Positions 19,622 to 23,843 of a DNA stretch of 23,843 bases are shown here, piece after piece. The notes under the pieces are model-generated. The model saw only the letters and a program-made list of their open reading frames with translations. It made no database searches and was not told where the DNA came from. This DNA comes from a virus, in IMG/VR virus record IMGVR_UViG_3300009136_000034, positions 1 through 23,843 of that record; one strand, given 5' to 3'. The first letter of the stretch is position 1; each line of letters begins with the position of its first letter. Position numbers and translations under genes: made by a program.

Positions 19622-20365
19622 CTACCGGAATCTTTGCTTTCCGGAAGCCCATACAACGAGGGAGTAACGGGTGCCCTTGGTCACCGGAGTGACTTGGTGG
19701 GGCATGAATGATGGGAACACCGTAACACTTCCAAGTTCGCGTGGGGCAATGAAATCATGACCGTTGTTATCACAGACGATGTCGCCACCTTCGTAGGTGT
19801 CCGGATCAGACAGCTGAACGCTGATGCCCAGCTTGCGGTTGCCCATGTGTCCTGCGCCCATGTCGATGTGCTTGGTGTAGAACTGCCCCGTTTCGTAGCG
19901 GGCTAGCTGCAGGGCTTCGAAGAAATCGATGTCGAACTGGAACTCTTTGTTCGCAGCCATTGTGAGTGCCAGCATCTTGTCGAACAACCAGAGGTTCTCC
20001 TTGACCTGCTCAACCCATGTCTGGCTGGAGGTACGAATGTCATCCTTGATGAACGGGATGTCGCTGCTGCCGTGCTCTTGCACTGCGGAAGCCCTCCAGT
20101 CGTTGTCGTTGTCCTTGATGATCTGCGTGCATTCAGGCGGAGAGAAGACCCCTTTGTGCGTCAGCACTGCCATGCAGGTTCCTTTATGCAACTCCGGCTC
20201 AGGCTTCTTCGGGGAAATCATTGCCTTCGGGTCAACGCCCAACTCTTTCTTGAATTCTTCTGGTTCGTAGTCGCCCAGCAATTCCTTTCGCTCGGCTTCC
20301 GGGTCAACAACTTCAATCACTGGTCGATCTTCTGCATGGTTGCTCATATCAATTCTGTCCGTCAT
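19622..20365 (-). CDS. 2OG-Fe(II) dioxygenase (prolyl 4-hydroxylase-like)
   Basis: The 247-residue protein belongs to the 2-oxoglutarate/Fe(II)-dependent oxygenases, which couple decarboxylation of 2-oxoglutarate to hydroxylation of a substrate. Metal ligands are visible: H166-x-D168 in YTKHIDMGAG and H223 in SFMPHQVTPV, with R233 in KGTRYSLVVWASG as 2-oxoglutarate anchor. GVFSPPECTQII near residue 72 is the usual start of the catalytic fold. The first 60 residues are acidic and probably disordered. GAAGGA inside the end of the upstream gene serves as ribosome binding site, so it is co-translated with head genes. The substrate is unknown: a virion protein, a host protein or a nucleic acid are all possible. 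Confidence 0.88.
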   Translation of the reverse strand: MTDRIDMSNHAEDRPVIEVVDPEAERKELLGDYEPEEFKKELGVDPKAMISPKKPEPELHKGTCMAVLTHKGVFSPPECTQIIKDNDNDWRASAVQEHGSSDIPFIKDDIRTSSQTWVEQVKENLWLFDKMLALTMAANKEFQFDIDFFEALQLARYETGQFYTKHIDMGAGHMGNRKLGISVQLSDPDTYEGGDIVCDNNGHDFIAPRELGSVTVFPSFMPHQVTPVTKGTRYSLVVWASGKQRFR

Positions 20366-22019: not shown

Positions 22020-22279
22020 TTAACATAATGCATCGCGTTCAAAAAGGGGTGGCAGGGGGTCGGCGTTATGTCACATGCTCTCTATGTGATTATGTTAAAT
22101 GTTATTCGCCCCGACATTATGGTAAGTGGGGTGAAATTGATTGCACTGCCCTATGCCCCTGCGCATTATGTTAAATGCAATTAGCTGCAATCCGAAAAGC
22201 ATTATGTCAAATCCCAAAACACAAAAGGCATTATGTCAAATGCACCCCCAACGGCATGCCCCCGGCATTATGTTAAATT
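22020..22279. repeat. Left block of GCATTATGTTAA-type repeats
   Basis: Eight copies of a motif with consensus GCATTATGTTAAATG lie in the non-coding gap between the HNH gene and the 154-residue gene. Copies: 22020-22031 (minus orientation), 22063-22077 (degenerate), 22087-22101, 22114-22128 (degenerate), 22163-22177, 22199-22213 and 22228-22242 (both GTCAA variants), and 22265-22279. Spacing between starts is irregular (about 24-50 bases). No ORF with a ribosome binding site is seen here. Function could be replication origin iterons or binding sites for a phage regulator. Confidence 0.8.
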
Positions 22280-22288
22280 AGAAAACCG

Positions 22289-22324
22289 AAAAAAAAATAA
22301 TGCCCCTATCCGAAAACAGGGGCA
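22289..22324 (-). terminator. Intrinsic terminator of the small-gene island
   Basis: In the minus-strand RNA TGCCCCT (22318-22324) pairs with AGGGGCA (22301-22307) over seven bases around a ten-base loop, followed by TTA and nine T. It starts 35 bases past the stop of the 154-residue gene, and separates the island from the HNH/head operon. Confidence 0.85.
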
Positions 22325-22359
22325 CGGGGTGTTGCGCTTGATGGGGTGCCGGGGTGCTG

Positions 22360-22824
22360 CTAGTCGTGGCACTCTTCCATGCGCAGCAGGTCGGTGCTGT
22401 TACGATAGAATTCTGCATGCCCCTGCTGATAGCCCTTGTCACATACCGTGTATGCTATCCACTGGCGCGTGTACCTGTCCCACCATGCAATGCGCATGCC
22501 TACACGGTACCAGCTGTCCGCCTGCACCCAATTGCGCCGATCTATAATGCTGCCCTTGCGCTTAGGGGTGCCGTACATAAACGCCCGCCTATGGTCCCCG
22601 CGTGCCTGCTGTGCGGCATCATACAGTGCACCCAGCTGGCGCGTGGCAGGCTCCGCCCTTGTCAGGCTAGGACGATAATCGCCCTTTGCATTTAGCAATT
22701 GCTCGAATGTAGAAAAAGCCGTGTTCTGCCATGTCAGCAGGTTAGCTTGTTTCTCTACGCCGACATGCGCCGCCATAATCCGCAATGCAGAATCGAAAGT
22801 ATTTAAAGCCGTTTGAGAATTCAT
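22360..22824 (-). CDS. 154-residue protein of unknown function
   Basis: The product has two halves. Residues 1-75 are helical (NTFDSALRIMAAHVGVEKQA, then STFEQLLNAKGDYRPSL). Residues 76-154 are rich in Trp, Tyr and Arg (WVQADSWYRVGMRIAWWDRY, then TRQWIAYTVCDKGYQQG) and look like a small beta domain. No signal peptide is seen. Its ATG overlaps the stop of the 27-residue membrane peptide as ATGA, so the two are probably translated together. It is the last gene of the island before the terminator. I do not recognise the family; early phage genes of this size often act on host functions, but nothing here proves it. Confidence 0.72.
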   Translation of the reverse strand: MNSQTALNTFDSALRIMAAHVGVEKQANLLTWQNTAFSTFEQLLNAKGDYRPSLTRAEPATRQLGALYDAAQQARGDHRRAFMYGTPKRKGSIIDRRNWVQADSWYRVGMRIAWWDRYTRQWIAYTVCDKGYQQGHAEFYRNSTDLLRMEECHD

Positions 22825-22904
22825 GATTGCACCCGTGCGGCTATGTAGGCAGGGGCTGCTATGGGCAGCAGGATAAAAAGAAAAACTCCGATAACGATGG
22901 TCAT
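22821..22904 (-). CDS. 27-residue single-span membrane peptide
   Basis: This short gene has a GGAG eight bases before ATG 22904 and reads MTIVIGVFLFILLPIAAPAY followed by IAARVQS and TGA. The first 22 residues are almost entirely hydrophobic, enough for one membrane span, and the only charged residue is an Arg near the C-terminus. Its stop overlaps the next start as ATGA. Ribosome binding site, coupling and hydrophobicity together support a real gene, although it is too short for routine gene calls. A membrane role such as regulating lysis, superinfection or a partner protein is only a guess. Confidence 0.68.
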   Translation of the reverse strand: MTIVIGVFLFILLPIAAPAYIAARVQS

Positions 22905-22940
22905 AATTTTAACTCCGTTTGTTTGCGAGGATTCGCACAT

Positions 22941-22964
22941 ATGCCCCCGGATTAGCAGGGGCAT
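22941..22964 (-). other. Hairpin between the first two island genes
   Basis: ATGCCCC (22941-22947) and GGGGCAT (22958-22964) form a perfect seven-base stem with a ten-base loop, 13 bases past the stop of the 74-residue gene. It lacks a T-run, so it is unlikely to terminate fully; it may protect or process the message. Its arms are nearly the same as those of the terminator at 22289-22324. Confidence 0.5.
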
Positions 22965-22976
22965 AAATTCGAAACT

Positions 22977-23201
22977 CTAGCAGAAAAGGTCTTCACGCAT
23001 GCGGATCAGATAACCGTTGTTTCCGATCATCGCCCGGAAAAGCAAAAGCTCGCCCGTGCTGCCACCGATGCATTCGTAACCGCTGTTAATTTTCGAAACC
23101 GTGAGACCTGCCGCCCGCAGTGCCTTGATCATTGCTTGCGTGTTACGTTTCGAAACTACCCGTGCCACCATGTTCAGGTTTGTGCTGATTTGCTGGTTCA
23201 T
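22977..23201 (-). CDS. 74-residue protein of unknown function, first gene of the island
   Basis: The start is taken as ATG at 23201, because GGAG precedes it and because a longer reading from 23243 would start inside the predicted promoter. The product begins MNQQISTNLNMVARVVSKRN and continues with AMIKALRAAGLTVSKINSGY and a C-terminal beta part (ELLLFRAMIGNNGYLIRMRE). The helix followed by strands and a conserved-looking GLTVSKINSGYEC suggests a small compact domain; Arg and Lys dominate among charged residues. It could be a DNA- or RNA-binding protein, but no family is recognised. It is transcribed toward the 27- and 154-residue genes. Confidence 0.7.
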   Translation of the reverse strand: MNQQISTNLNMVARVVSKRNTQAMIKALRAAGLTVSKINSGYECIGGSTGELLLFRAMIGNNGYLIRMREDLFC

Positions 23202-23229
23202 TTTTTTGCACTCCGTTAATTGAGATTCA

Positions 23230-23258
23230 ATAGTACATTGCAATTAGCTGCATTGCAA
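23230..23258 (-). promoter_or_regulatory. Candidate sigma70-type promoter of the small-gene island
   Basis: On the minus strand TTGCAA (23253-23258) and TACTAT (23230-23235) stand 17 bases apart, each four of six to consensus. Transcription would start near 23223, about 22 bases before the ATG at 23201. The spacer is almost filled by TGCAGCTAATTGCA, a 14-bp motif that recurs elsewhere in the non-coding blocks, as an operator might. Confidence 0.45.
23239..23252. repeat. Second repeated motif TGCAATTAGCTGCA (copy in promoter spacer)
   Basis: The 14-mer TGCAATTAGCTGCA is found at 22176-22189 and 23239-23252, and with one mismatch (TGCAATTATCTGCA) at 23348-23361. It is a quasi-dyad with TGCA at both ends. 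The other two copies overlap the edges of GCATTATGTTAA repeats. A shared regulator is inferred. Confidence 0.55.
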
Positions 23259-23294
23259 TACTGATCGCCCAGAAATGTGCACTATTTCACAGTT

Positions 23295-23573
23295 TTGCGT
23301 TTGTCCTGCTGAGATCGGCTTACCTATGCCGTTTAGAAATTTATTTTTGCAATTATCTGCATTATGTTAAAAAAGGGGTTGCGTTTGTCAATCAGGTAGG
23401 TATAATGAAAGCTCGAATCAAGGGAGGGGTGGACGCGGAGGGTGCCCGACTTTCGCGGAAAGCGAATAGTTCGCATTTGCGCATTATGTTAACTCGCCCG
23501 CTACCGTTTTGAATTTTTCGCACTAAGCCCCTGACCCACCCCGGTAGGATACGCGCATTGCTTGCGTTTGTCA
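23295..23573 (+). repeat. Three copies of TTGCGTTTGTC
   Basis: The 11-mer TTGCGTTTGTC occurs at 23295-23305, 23379-23389 and 23562-23572; the last two share one more base (A). In both of these a TATAAT-like or CATAAT element lies within 20 bases downstream on the plus strand. They may be promoter or operator parts facing rightward. Confidence 0.5.
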
Positions 23574-23690
23574 ACAGGAATTTAACATAATCCAGAAAAT
23601 AAAAAGTCTTTTTTTTCAATGCATTATGTTAAATGGCACGCTAATTGCCACGGCAAAAACCATGCCAGCTGCATTATGTTAAATGGCACG
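23359..23690. repeat. Right block of GCATTATGTTAA-type repeats
   Basis: Copies lie at 23359-23373, 23481-23495, 23579-23592 (minus orientation), 23621-23635 and 23671-23685. The last two belong to an exact 20-bp direct repeat, GCATTATGTTAAATGGCACG, at 23621-23640 and 23671-23690, 50 bases apart. With the left block there are about 13 copies. The non-coding stretch 23202-23779 holds these motifs, the promoter candidates and no supported gene. Confidence 0.8.
23379..23406 (+). promoter_or_regulatory. Candidate rightward promoter
   Basis: TATAAT at 23401-23406 is a perfect -10 box; TTGCGT at 23379-23384 gives a weak -35 box at 16 bases. It points toward the contig end, where plus-strand genes may begin beyond the break. 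No convincing plus-strand gene follows inside the window. Confidence 0.3.
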
Positions 23691-23779
23691 ATTCTTGACG
23701 TGCAGGCAAGCGATTCTAAGCCCTTGTGAGCGATTCAAAATACAATTGGATACTAGGGCAAGGGTATACGCTGAAAGGG

Positions 23780-23843
23780 CTGTCTCTTATACACATCTGA
23801 CGCTGCCGACGAAGGCTTAGGTGTAGATCTCGGTGGTCGCCGT
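23780..23843 (+). other. Illumina Nextera/P5 adapter read-through (not phage DNA)
   Basis: CTGTCTCTTATACACATCT at 23780-23798 is the transposase mosaic end, GACGCTGCCGACGA at 23799-23812 completes the Read 1 adapter complement, AGGCTTAG at 23813-23820 is in the i5 index place, and 23821-23843 is the complement of the P5 flow-cell sequence. Biological sequence therefore ends at 23779. Confidence 0.97.

Follow-up and report, generated by a model that had tools for sequence, protein, structure and literature searches.

What reads the short repeats that crowd two non-coding blocks at one end of a phage contig? The window, by which we mean the whole analysed stretch of 23,843 nucleotides, is a viral contig from IMG/VR whose minus strand encodes siphovirus-like structural genes. 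Its phage sequence stops at 23779, the final positions (23780-23843) being Nextera transposase/P5 adapter read-through (CTGTCTCTTATACACATCT...GTGTAGATCTCGGTGGTCGCCGT); the contig end adjoins the array and the phage genome is incomplete.

Repeat copies and island genes in the window

An earlier note, made from the letters alone, had described about 13 copies of the motif, mostly in plus orientation with two in minus. A scan with GCATTATGTTAA at up to two mismatches bears this out, with 12 copies in the window where chance would give 1.36 (none of 100 shuffles had as many) and a degenerate thirteenth at 22063 (Table 1). All 12 fall in 22020-23682, ten on the plus strand and two (22020 and 23582) on the minus strand, and the structural genes (1-21959) hold zero copies, as the note had observed. 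The core is exact in seven copies (six plus, one minus) and within one mismatch in ten. The GTCAA variant was rightly counted twice, at 22199 and 22228, and the identical 20-mer said to extend two copies is GCATTATGTTAAATGGCACG, at 23621 and 23671. Start-to-start spacing within the blocks is irregular, from 24 to 122 bp, and two copies are inverted, in agreement with the view that these repeats are unlike classical iterons. The partial dyad proposed for the outer bases (GCATT...AATGC) holds for the copies at 22163 and 22228 but not as a general feature, since G directly follows TTATGTTAAAT in 54% of sites.

Table 1. Repeat copies, island genes and control elements in the window (sequence positions, strand and basis where given).
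Position	Strand	Feature	Basis or remark
22020..22031	-	Copy GCATTATGTTAA, XerD-half-site-like	Motif scan
22063..22077	+	Degenerate 13th copy GCGTTATGTCACATG	
22087..22098	+	Copy TGATTATGTTAA	Motif scan
22114..22125	+	Copy ACATTATGGTAA	Motif scan
22163..22174	+	Copy GCATTATGTTAA, complete 15-mer GCATTATGTTAAATG	Motif scan
22199..22210	+	Copy GCATTATGTCAA, GTCAA variant, Burkholderia-type XerD half	Motif scan, dif table
22228..22239	+	Copy GCATTATGTCAA, GTCAA variant	Motif scan
22265..22276	+	Copy GCATTATGTTAA	Motif scan
22300..22325	-	Intrinsic-terminator-like hairpin and T run	End of small-gene operon
22360..22824	-	154-aa island gene, no known domain	71% identity to L098
22821..22904	-	27-aa hydrophobic ORF	AACGGAG ribosome-binding-like sequence
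22977..23201	-	74-aa island gene	54% homolog between both arrays of contig G010
23359..23370	+	Copy GCATTATGTTAA	Overlaps -10 of promoter-like site 23391-23364
23364..23391	-	sigma70-like promoter TTGACA-16-TAACAT	
23481..23492	+	Copy GCATTATGTTAA	Motif scan
23546..23574	-	sigma70-like promoter TTGACA-17-TATCCT	Aligns with TTGACA-17-TAAAAT in L098
23582..23593	-	Inverted copy GGATTATGTTAA	Immediately upstream of -35 of promoter 23574-23546
23621..23632	+	Copy GCATTATGTTAA	First half of composite element
23634..23649	+	sigma54-type element TGGCACGCTAATTGCC	1 bp after TTATGTTAA
23654..23667	-	Inverted sigma54-type element TGGCATGGTTTTTG	
23671..23682	+	Copy GCATTATGTTAA	First half of second composite element
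23684..23697	+	sigma54-type element TGGCACGATTCTTG	

The two blocks flank three small minus-strand genes of 74, 27 and 154 aa, the island that the note had recognised. Pfam and PHROG searches with the 74- and 154-aa proteins detected no domain, and specifically no DNA-binding domain. A search with the 154-aa protein returned one relative only, and the region gave no DNA similarity to INPHARED phages and no match in Rfam. The island operon is closed by the hairpin at 22325-22300, and the left block thus lies between the island operon and the structural operon. Terminator-like hairpins are not in excess here (1 found against 2.6 expected in shuffles), so that position rather than count is the support; a similar hairpin is visible in the related contig L098. 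The scan for sigma70-like promoters found 4 against 2.4 expected, two of which are listed in Table 1. Another word also recurs in the right block, TTGACAAACGCAA as read on the minus strand and GCGTTTGTCAA as read on the plus, at 23295, 23377 and 23559; it is kept in L098 (about 1242 and 1491) and may be a -35 element. A 2OG-Fe(II) oxygenase-like gene is found inside the structural operon (19622-20365).

The XerD half of dif and an adjoining sigma54-type element

The core TTATGTTAAAT is identical in every letter to the 11-mer of dif that XerD binds. The note had seen here the best candidate for an undescribed control or replication system, but the motif itself is known. In the proteobacterial dif table of Carnoy and Roten (PMC2731167), the positions at which dif sites vary are also those that vary among the phage copies, with the same changes tolerated in both (T/C/A at position 7, A/C at 9, A/G/C at 10 and T at 11). 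The phage and dif matrices agree column by column, with correlations of 0.72-1.0. The window copies carry GCA before TTATGTTAAAT, as does the dif of Dechloromonas aromatica, which includes GCATTATGTTAAAT exactly (PMC2731167). Sequences this short can also match by convergence.

The chromosomal dimer resolution site bound by XerCD shares this half and its tolerated variants, but dif is single and has an XerC half, whereas the window has about 12 copies in a phage control region and no XerC half. None lies 6 bp from the XerD half in the window, L098, G001, G010 or G013, and a general excess of XerC halves at this distance was not seen inside arrays. Elsewhere the picture differs: the exact 15-mer GCATTATGTTAAATG occurs at 86 viral sites outside arrays, and an XerC half stands 6 bp away in 10 of the 86, compared with 0-1 at each of the other spacings (2 to 12) and a single site over all of these, so at these places the 15-mer is the XerD side of a complete dif. 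In the window, the absence of the XerC half points to an array of isolated XerD half-sites rather than an integration site, with XerD as the predicted binder. The array of contig L268 does enclose a complete dif, ACTTCGCATAA-CGGCCT-TTATGTAAAAT, both halves of which are identical to those of the Methylobacillus dif.

Complete dif-like sites were also observed in a tandem 29-bp array of L338 (1047-1133), where there are three (ATYGCCGATAA-N6-TTATGTMAAGT), and in viral contigs L016, L020, L040, L055, L067, L069, L071, L076, L083 and L095, whose sites end in GCA-TTATGTTAAATG and which are candidate Xer-integrating phages. A scan for arrays of XerC halves yielded different palindromic repeats, not XerC arrays.

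In several phages, and at the right end of the window, half-sites are fused to the element TGGCAY-N5-TTGC, which is the sigma54 (RpoN) -24/-12 pattern. Among contigs not selected for this element, array DNA has 15 occurrences in 31 kb and the DNA outside has one in 382 kb, and other spacer lengths are not enriched. The offset from TTATGTHAM to TGGCAY is exactly 1 bp in 16 cases, and a direct scan for the composite TTATGTHAM-N-TGGCAY-N5-TTGC found 11 viral stretches. The window has one TTGC copy, one TTGA copy and one inverted copy; the 23-mer TTGCCACGGCAAAAACCATGCCA at the inverted element (23654) is common to the window and L289. These elements have the letters and spacing of sigma54 promoters, but differ from them in standing 1 bp from an XerD half-site, in being often tandem or facing, and in sometimes having TTGA for TTGC. 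They are partly palindromic and pairs sometimes face each other (for example 23634 and 23654), which is unusual for promoters. No sigma54 activator (bEBP, PF00158) was found in 23 array contigs; a host activator is possible. Separately, L098 has a near-perfect sigma54-type element, TTGGCACGGCACTTGCA (1685-1700), about 85 bp upstream of its island operon, which is without a half-site and not kept in the window.

Conservation in relatives and recurrence in other phages

A capsid protein search identified L098 (98% MCP identity) and more distant phages. In L098 the same two blocks contain 12 TTATGTYAA cores, all exact and on the corresponding strand, with the extra copies inserted as whole units; across the right block, aligned sites are 96% identical between the two contigs and the remainder 80%. 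The 52-kb contig G010, which otherwise has hardly any protein in common with the window, again has two blocks around an island, in which a homolog of the 74-aa protein (54%) is encoded. In relatives with MCP identity of 67% or less the motif is absent, bar scattered single copies in one. The check in relatives that the note had proposed is thus divided, as the close ones (L098 and G010) keep the sites at the locus and the distant ones do not.

Pairs of CATTATGTYAA no more than 40 bp apart occur in 24 viral stretches, about 10 of them genuine arrays and some others coding repeats or near-duplicates; our estimate of the chance expectation, about 0.6, assumes random bases and a collection of about 40 Gb. 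Since a tandem repeat can multiply any 9-mer, the triple-pattern scan was repeated with the reversed motif as a control, and arrays were counted among the matches listed in each case. Among these matches, the reversed-motif arrays are tandem repeats inside coding DNA, but most TTATGTHAA arrays are neither coding nor tandem. If only arrays of five or more copies and GC above 0.40 are counted, the matches listed include 18 TTATGTHAA arrays and 0 reversed-motif arrays.

The proteins that they share sort 20 whole array contigs into 8 groups. No family of DNA-binding proteins was detected in all 8 groups among these 20 contigs, where a small and diverged phage regulator may have escaped detection; the most widely shared protein, which by eye looks like a DNA polymerase/UDG, is present in 5 of the 8. 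A Phage_integrase domain, marking a tyrosine recombinase, was found in 0 of 23 array contigs and 4 of 23 comparison contigs, a difference that is not significant alone. Cultured relatives (Xanthomonas phages CP2 and Olaya, DLP5, RHph_TM16 and Vibrio phages) lack host-specific half-site arrays. We found no description of phage XerD half-site arrays in the open-access literature, and one may exist elsewhere.

Other repeats came to light in these scans. A triple-array scan of bacterial genomes returned iteron-like repeats and, for the most part, repeats without relation to the motif in Lachnospiraceae or AT-rich genomes, and is for that reason not used as evidence; ends of IS21-like transposons were considered for these repeats and rejected, as no transposase was apparent beside the ones inspected. 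The TTATGTAAA arrays of L307 and L371 were dropped as GTTTAYRTAAAC-type repeats. Viral contig L515 (1286-1450) has about 10 palindromic TTATGCGCATAA-type repeats in non-coding DNA, and L139, L146, L151, L183 and L228 (Lachnospiraceae and other MAGs) have TTATGTCAACC-type arrays at 20-45 bp spacing, some intragenic (for example in a biotin ligase-like gene), which resemble a dispersed repeat family.

Candidate occupants of the array

That one site recurs in phages whose genes differ indicates a host factor and, since the motif also matches XerD, host XerD is the most likely occupant. We lean towards an array of isolated XerD half-sites occupied by host XerD, with no binder supplied by the phage, which would gate two operons and may also mark the phage chromosome. 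The half-sites occupy two non-coding blocks that contain promoters, the first upstream of the small-gene operon and the other between the small-gene and structural operons, and XerD bound beside or over the promoters would gate transcription of both. The predicted contacts are a copy over the -10 of 23391-23364, a copy against the -35 of 23574-23546, and two copies fused at 1 bp to sigma54-type elements. An effect on transcription of both operons is probable on this arrangement.

Bound XerD might further serve as a marker of the phage chromosome or as a roadblock near the replication region, where the array could unload SMC complexes of the host, an activity of XerD in Bacillus, or form a platform that shields phage DNA from host chromosome machinery. 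XerD is described as the SMC unloader of Bacillus (Karaboja 2021, as reported in PMC12322038 and PMC8357415), and resembles our proposal in that XerD there works by binding a specific sequence and not by recombination. Its place of action in that case is a Firmicutes chromosomal terminus, and no such role is known in phages. XerD may also take part in replication or in the handling of the chromosome, because arrays lie near the GC-skew minimum, two of them have DnaA boxes, and XerD unloads SMC in Bacillus.

The main rivals that remain are iterons of a phage initiator and operators of a phage repressor. We think it unlikely that the blocks are an origin in which a replication initiator encoded by the phage reads the copies like iterons. 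The GC-skew profile that the note had recommended does place the array 0.03-0.11 of the genome from the minimum in 8 complete circular array genomes, although these represent about 4 independent groups and the result is suggestive only. DnaA boxes (TTATCCACA) lie inside the arrays of L306 (2350-2390) and L135 (3749-3827), the array is about 300 bp from a primase gene in one phage group, and in L192 TTATGTCAA repeats stand, by eye, beside a gene like a plasmid replication initiator; plasmid iterons such as these can also read TTATGTCAA, which counts against XerD. Against an initiator are the irregular spacing, the lack of a DnaA box in the arrays of the window, L098 and G010, and the occurrence of one 9-mer in 8 groups with different replication genes, which is unexpected for initiator-specific sites; iterons would also leave the dif identity and the sigma54-type composite unexplained.

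Rather less likely is that the copies serve a repressor encoded by the phage as operators or stoperators, in the manner of L5-like mycobacteriophages. The sites are asymmetric, mostly in one orientation and in promoter regions, two overlap or abut promoter elements, and the core TGTCAA resembles the end of the L5 stoperator. They are, however, confined to 1.7 kb of 23.8 kb rather than dispersed, no repressor or integrase was recognised in the incomplete phage genome, and the motif recurs in unrelated phages and matches dif instead. The stoperators of L5 and TipsytheTRex (PMC9283540) are likewise many short asymmetric sites with an orientation bias in phage intergenic DNA, but they are genome-wide, read by a phage repressor and of another consensus than the window's.

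It is very improbable that the array serves Xer-dependent integration or dimer resolution, as in an IMEX. XerD half-sites are present, and other viral contigs with the 15-mer carry a full dif, and L268 has one within its array; yet the XerC half at 6 bp is missing from the window, G001, G010 and G013, and recombination does not need a dozen half-sites. An IMEX has an attP with both halves and no integrase of its own, and the related array contigs have no integrase and no full attP. CTXphi and other IMEX are also phage DNA with sites for host Xer proteins, but they need XerC and XerD halves for integration, and the window offers only XerD halves, arrayed.

Recognition sites for packaging (pac/cos) have even less to commend them: in one group a small gene at a terS-like place (judged by position only) is about 130 bp from the array, but there is no terminase gene near the window array and the motif is common to phages with different terminases. 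The note was right to see a region of control or replication type whose repeats are real and unlike iterons; its options of a nucleoid-like protein and of packaging are unsupported. Chance or assembly artefact, for which one could cite the adapter at the contig end, is refuted by conservation of the sites in the independent contigs L098 and G010 and by the 12 copies found against 1.36 expected.

Returning to host XerD, its half-sites cluster at gene-control regions of many unrelated environmental phages, which suggests a widespread and apparently undescribed recruitment of a host protein. We raise more tentatively the prospect that a widespread phage class recruits host XerD as a DNA-bound regulator or SMC-unloading marker, and not to recombine DNA, by means of isolated half-sites, with XerD-gated sigma54 promoters where a half-site is fused at 1 bp to a sigma54-type element. 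If this is true, a conserved chromosome-maintenance protein would be a common target of phage recruitment, in at least 8 genome groups; the host dif variant would provide a sequence handle for matching uncultured phages to their hosts; and non-recombinase roles of XerD in proteobacteria would become testable on a short cloned fragment.
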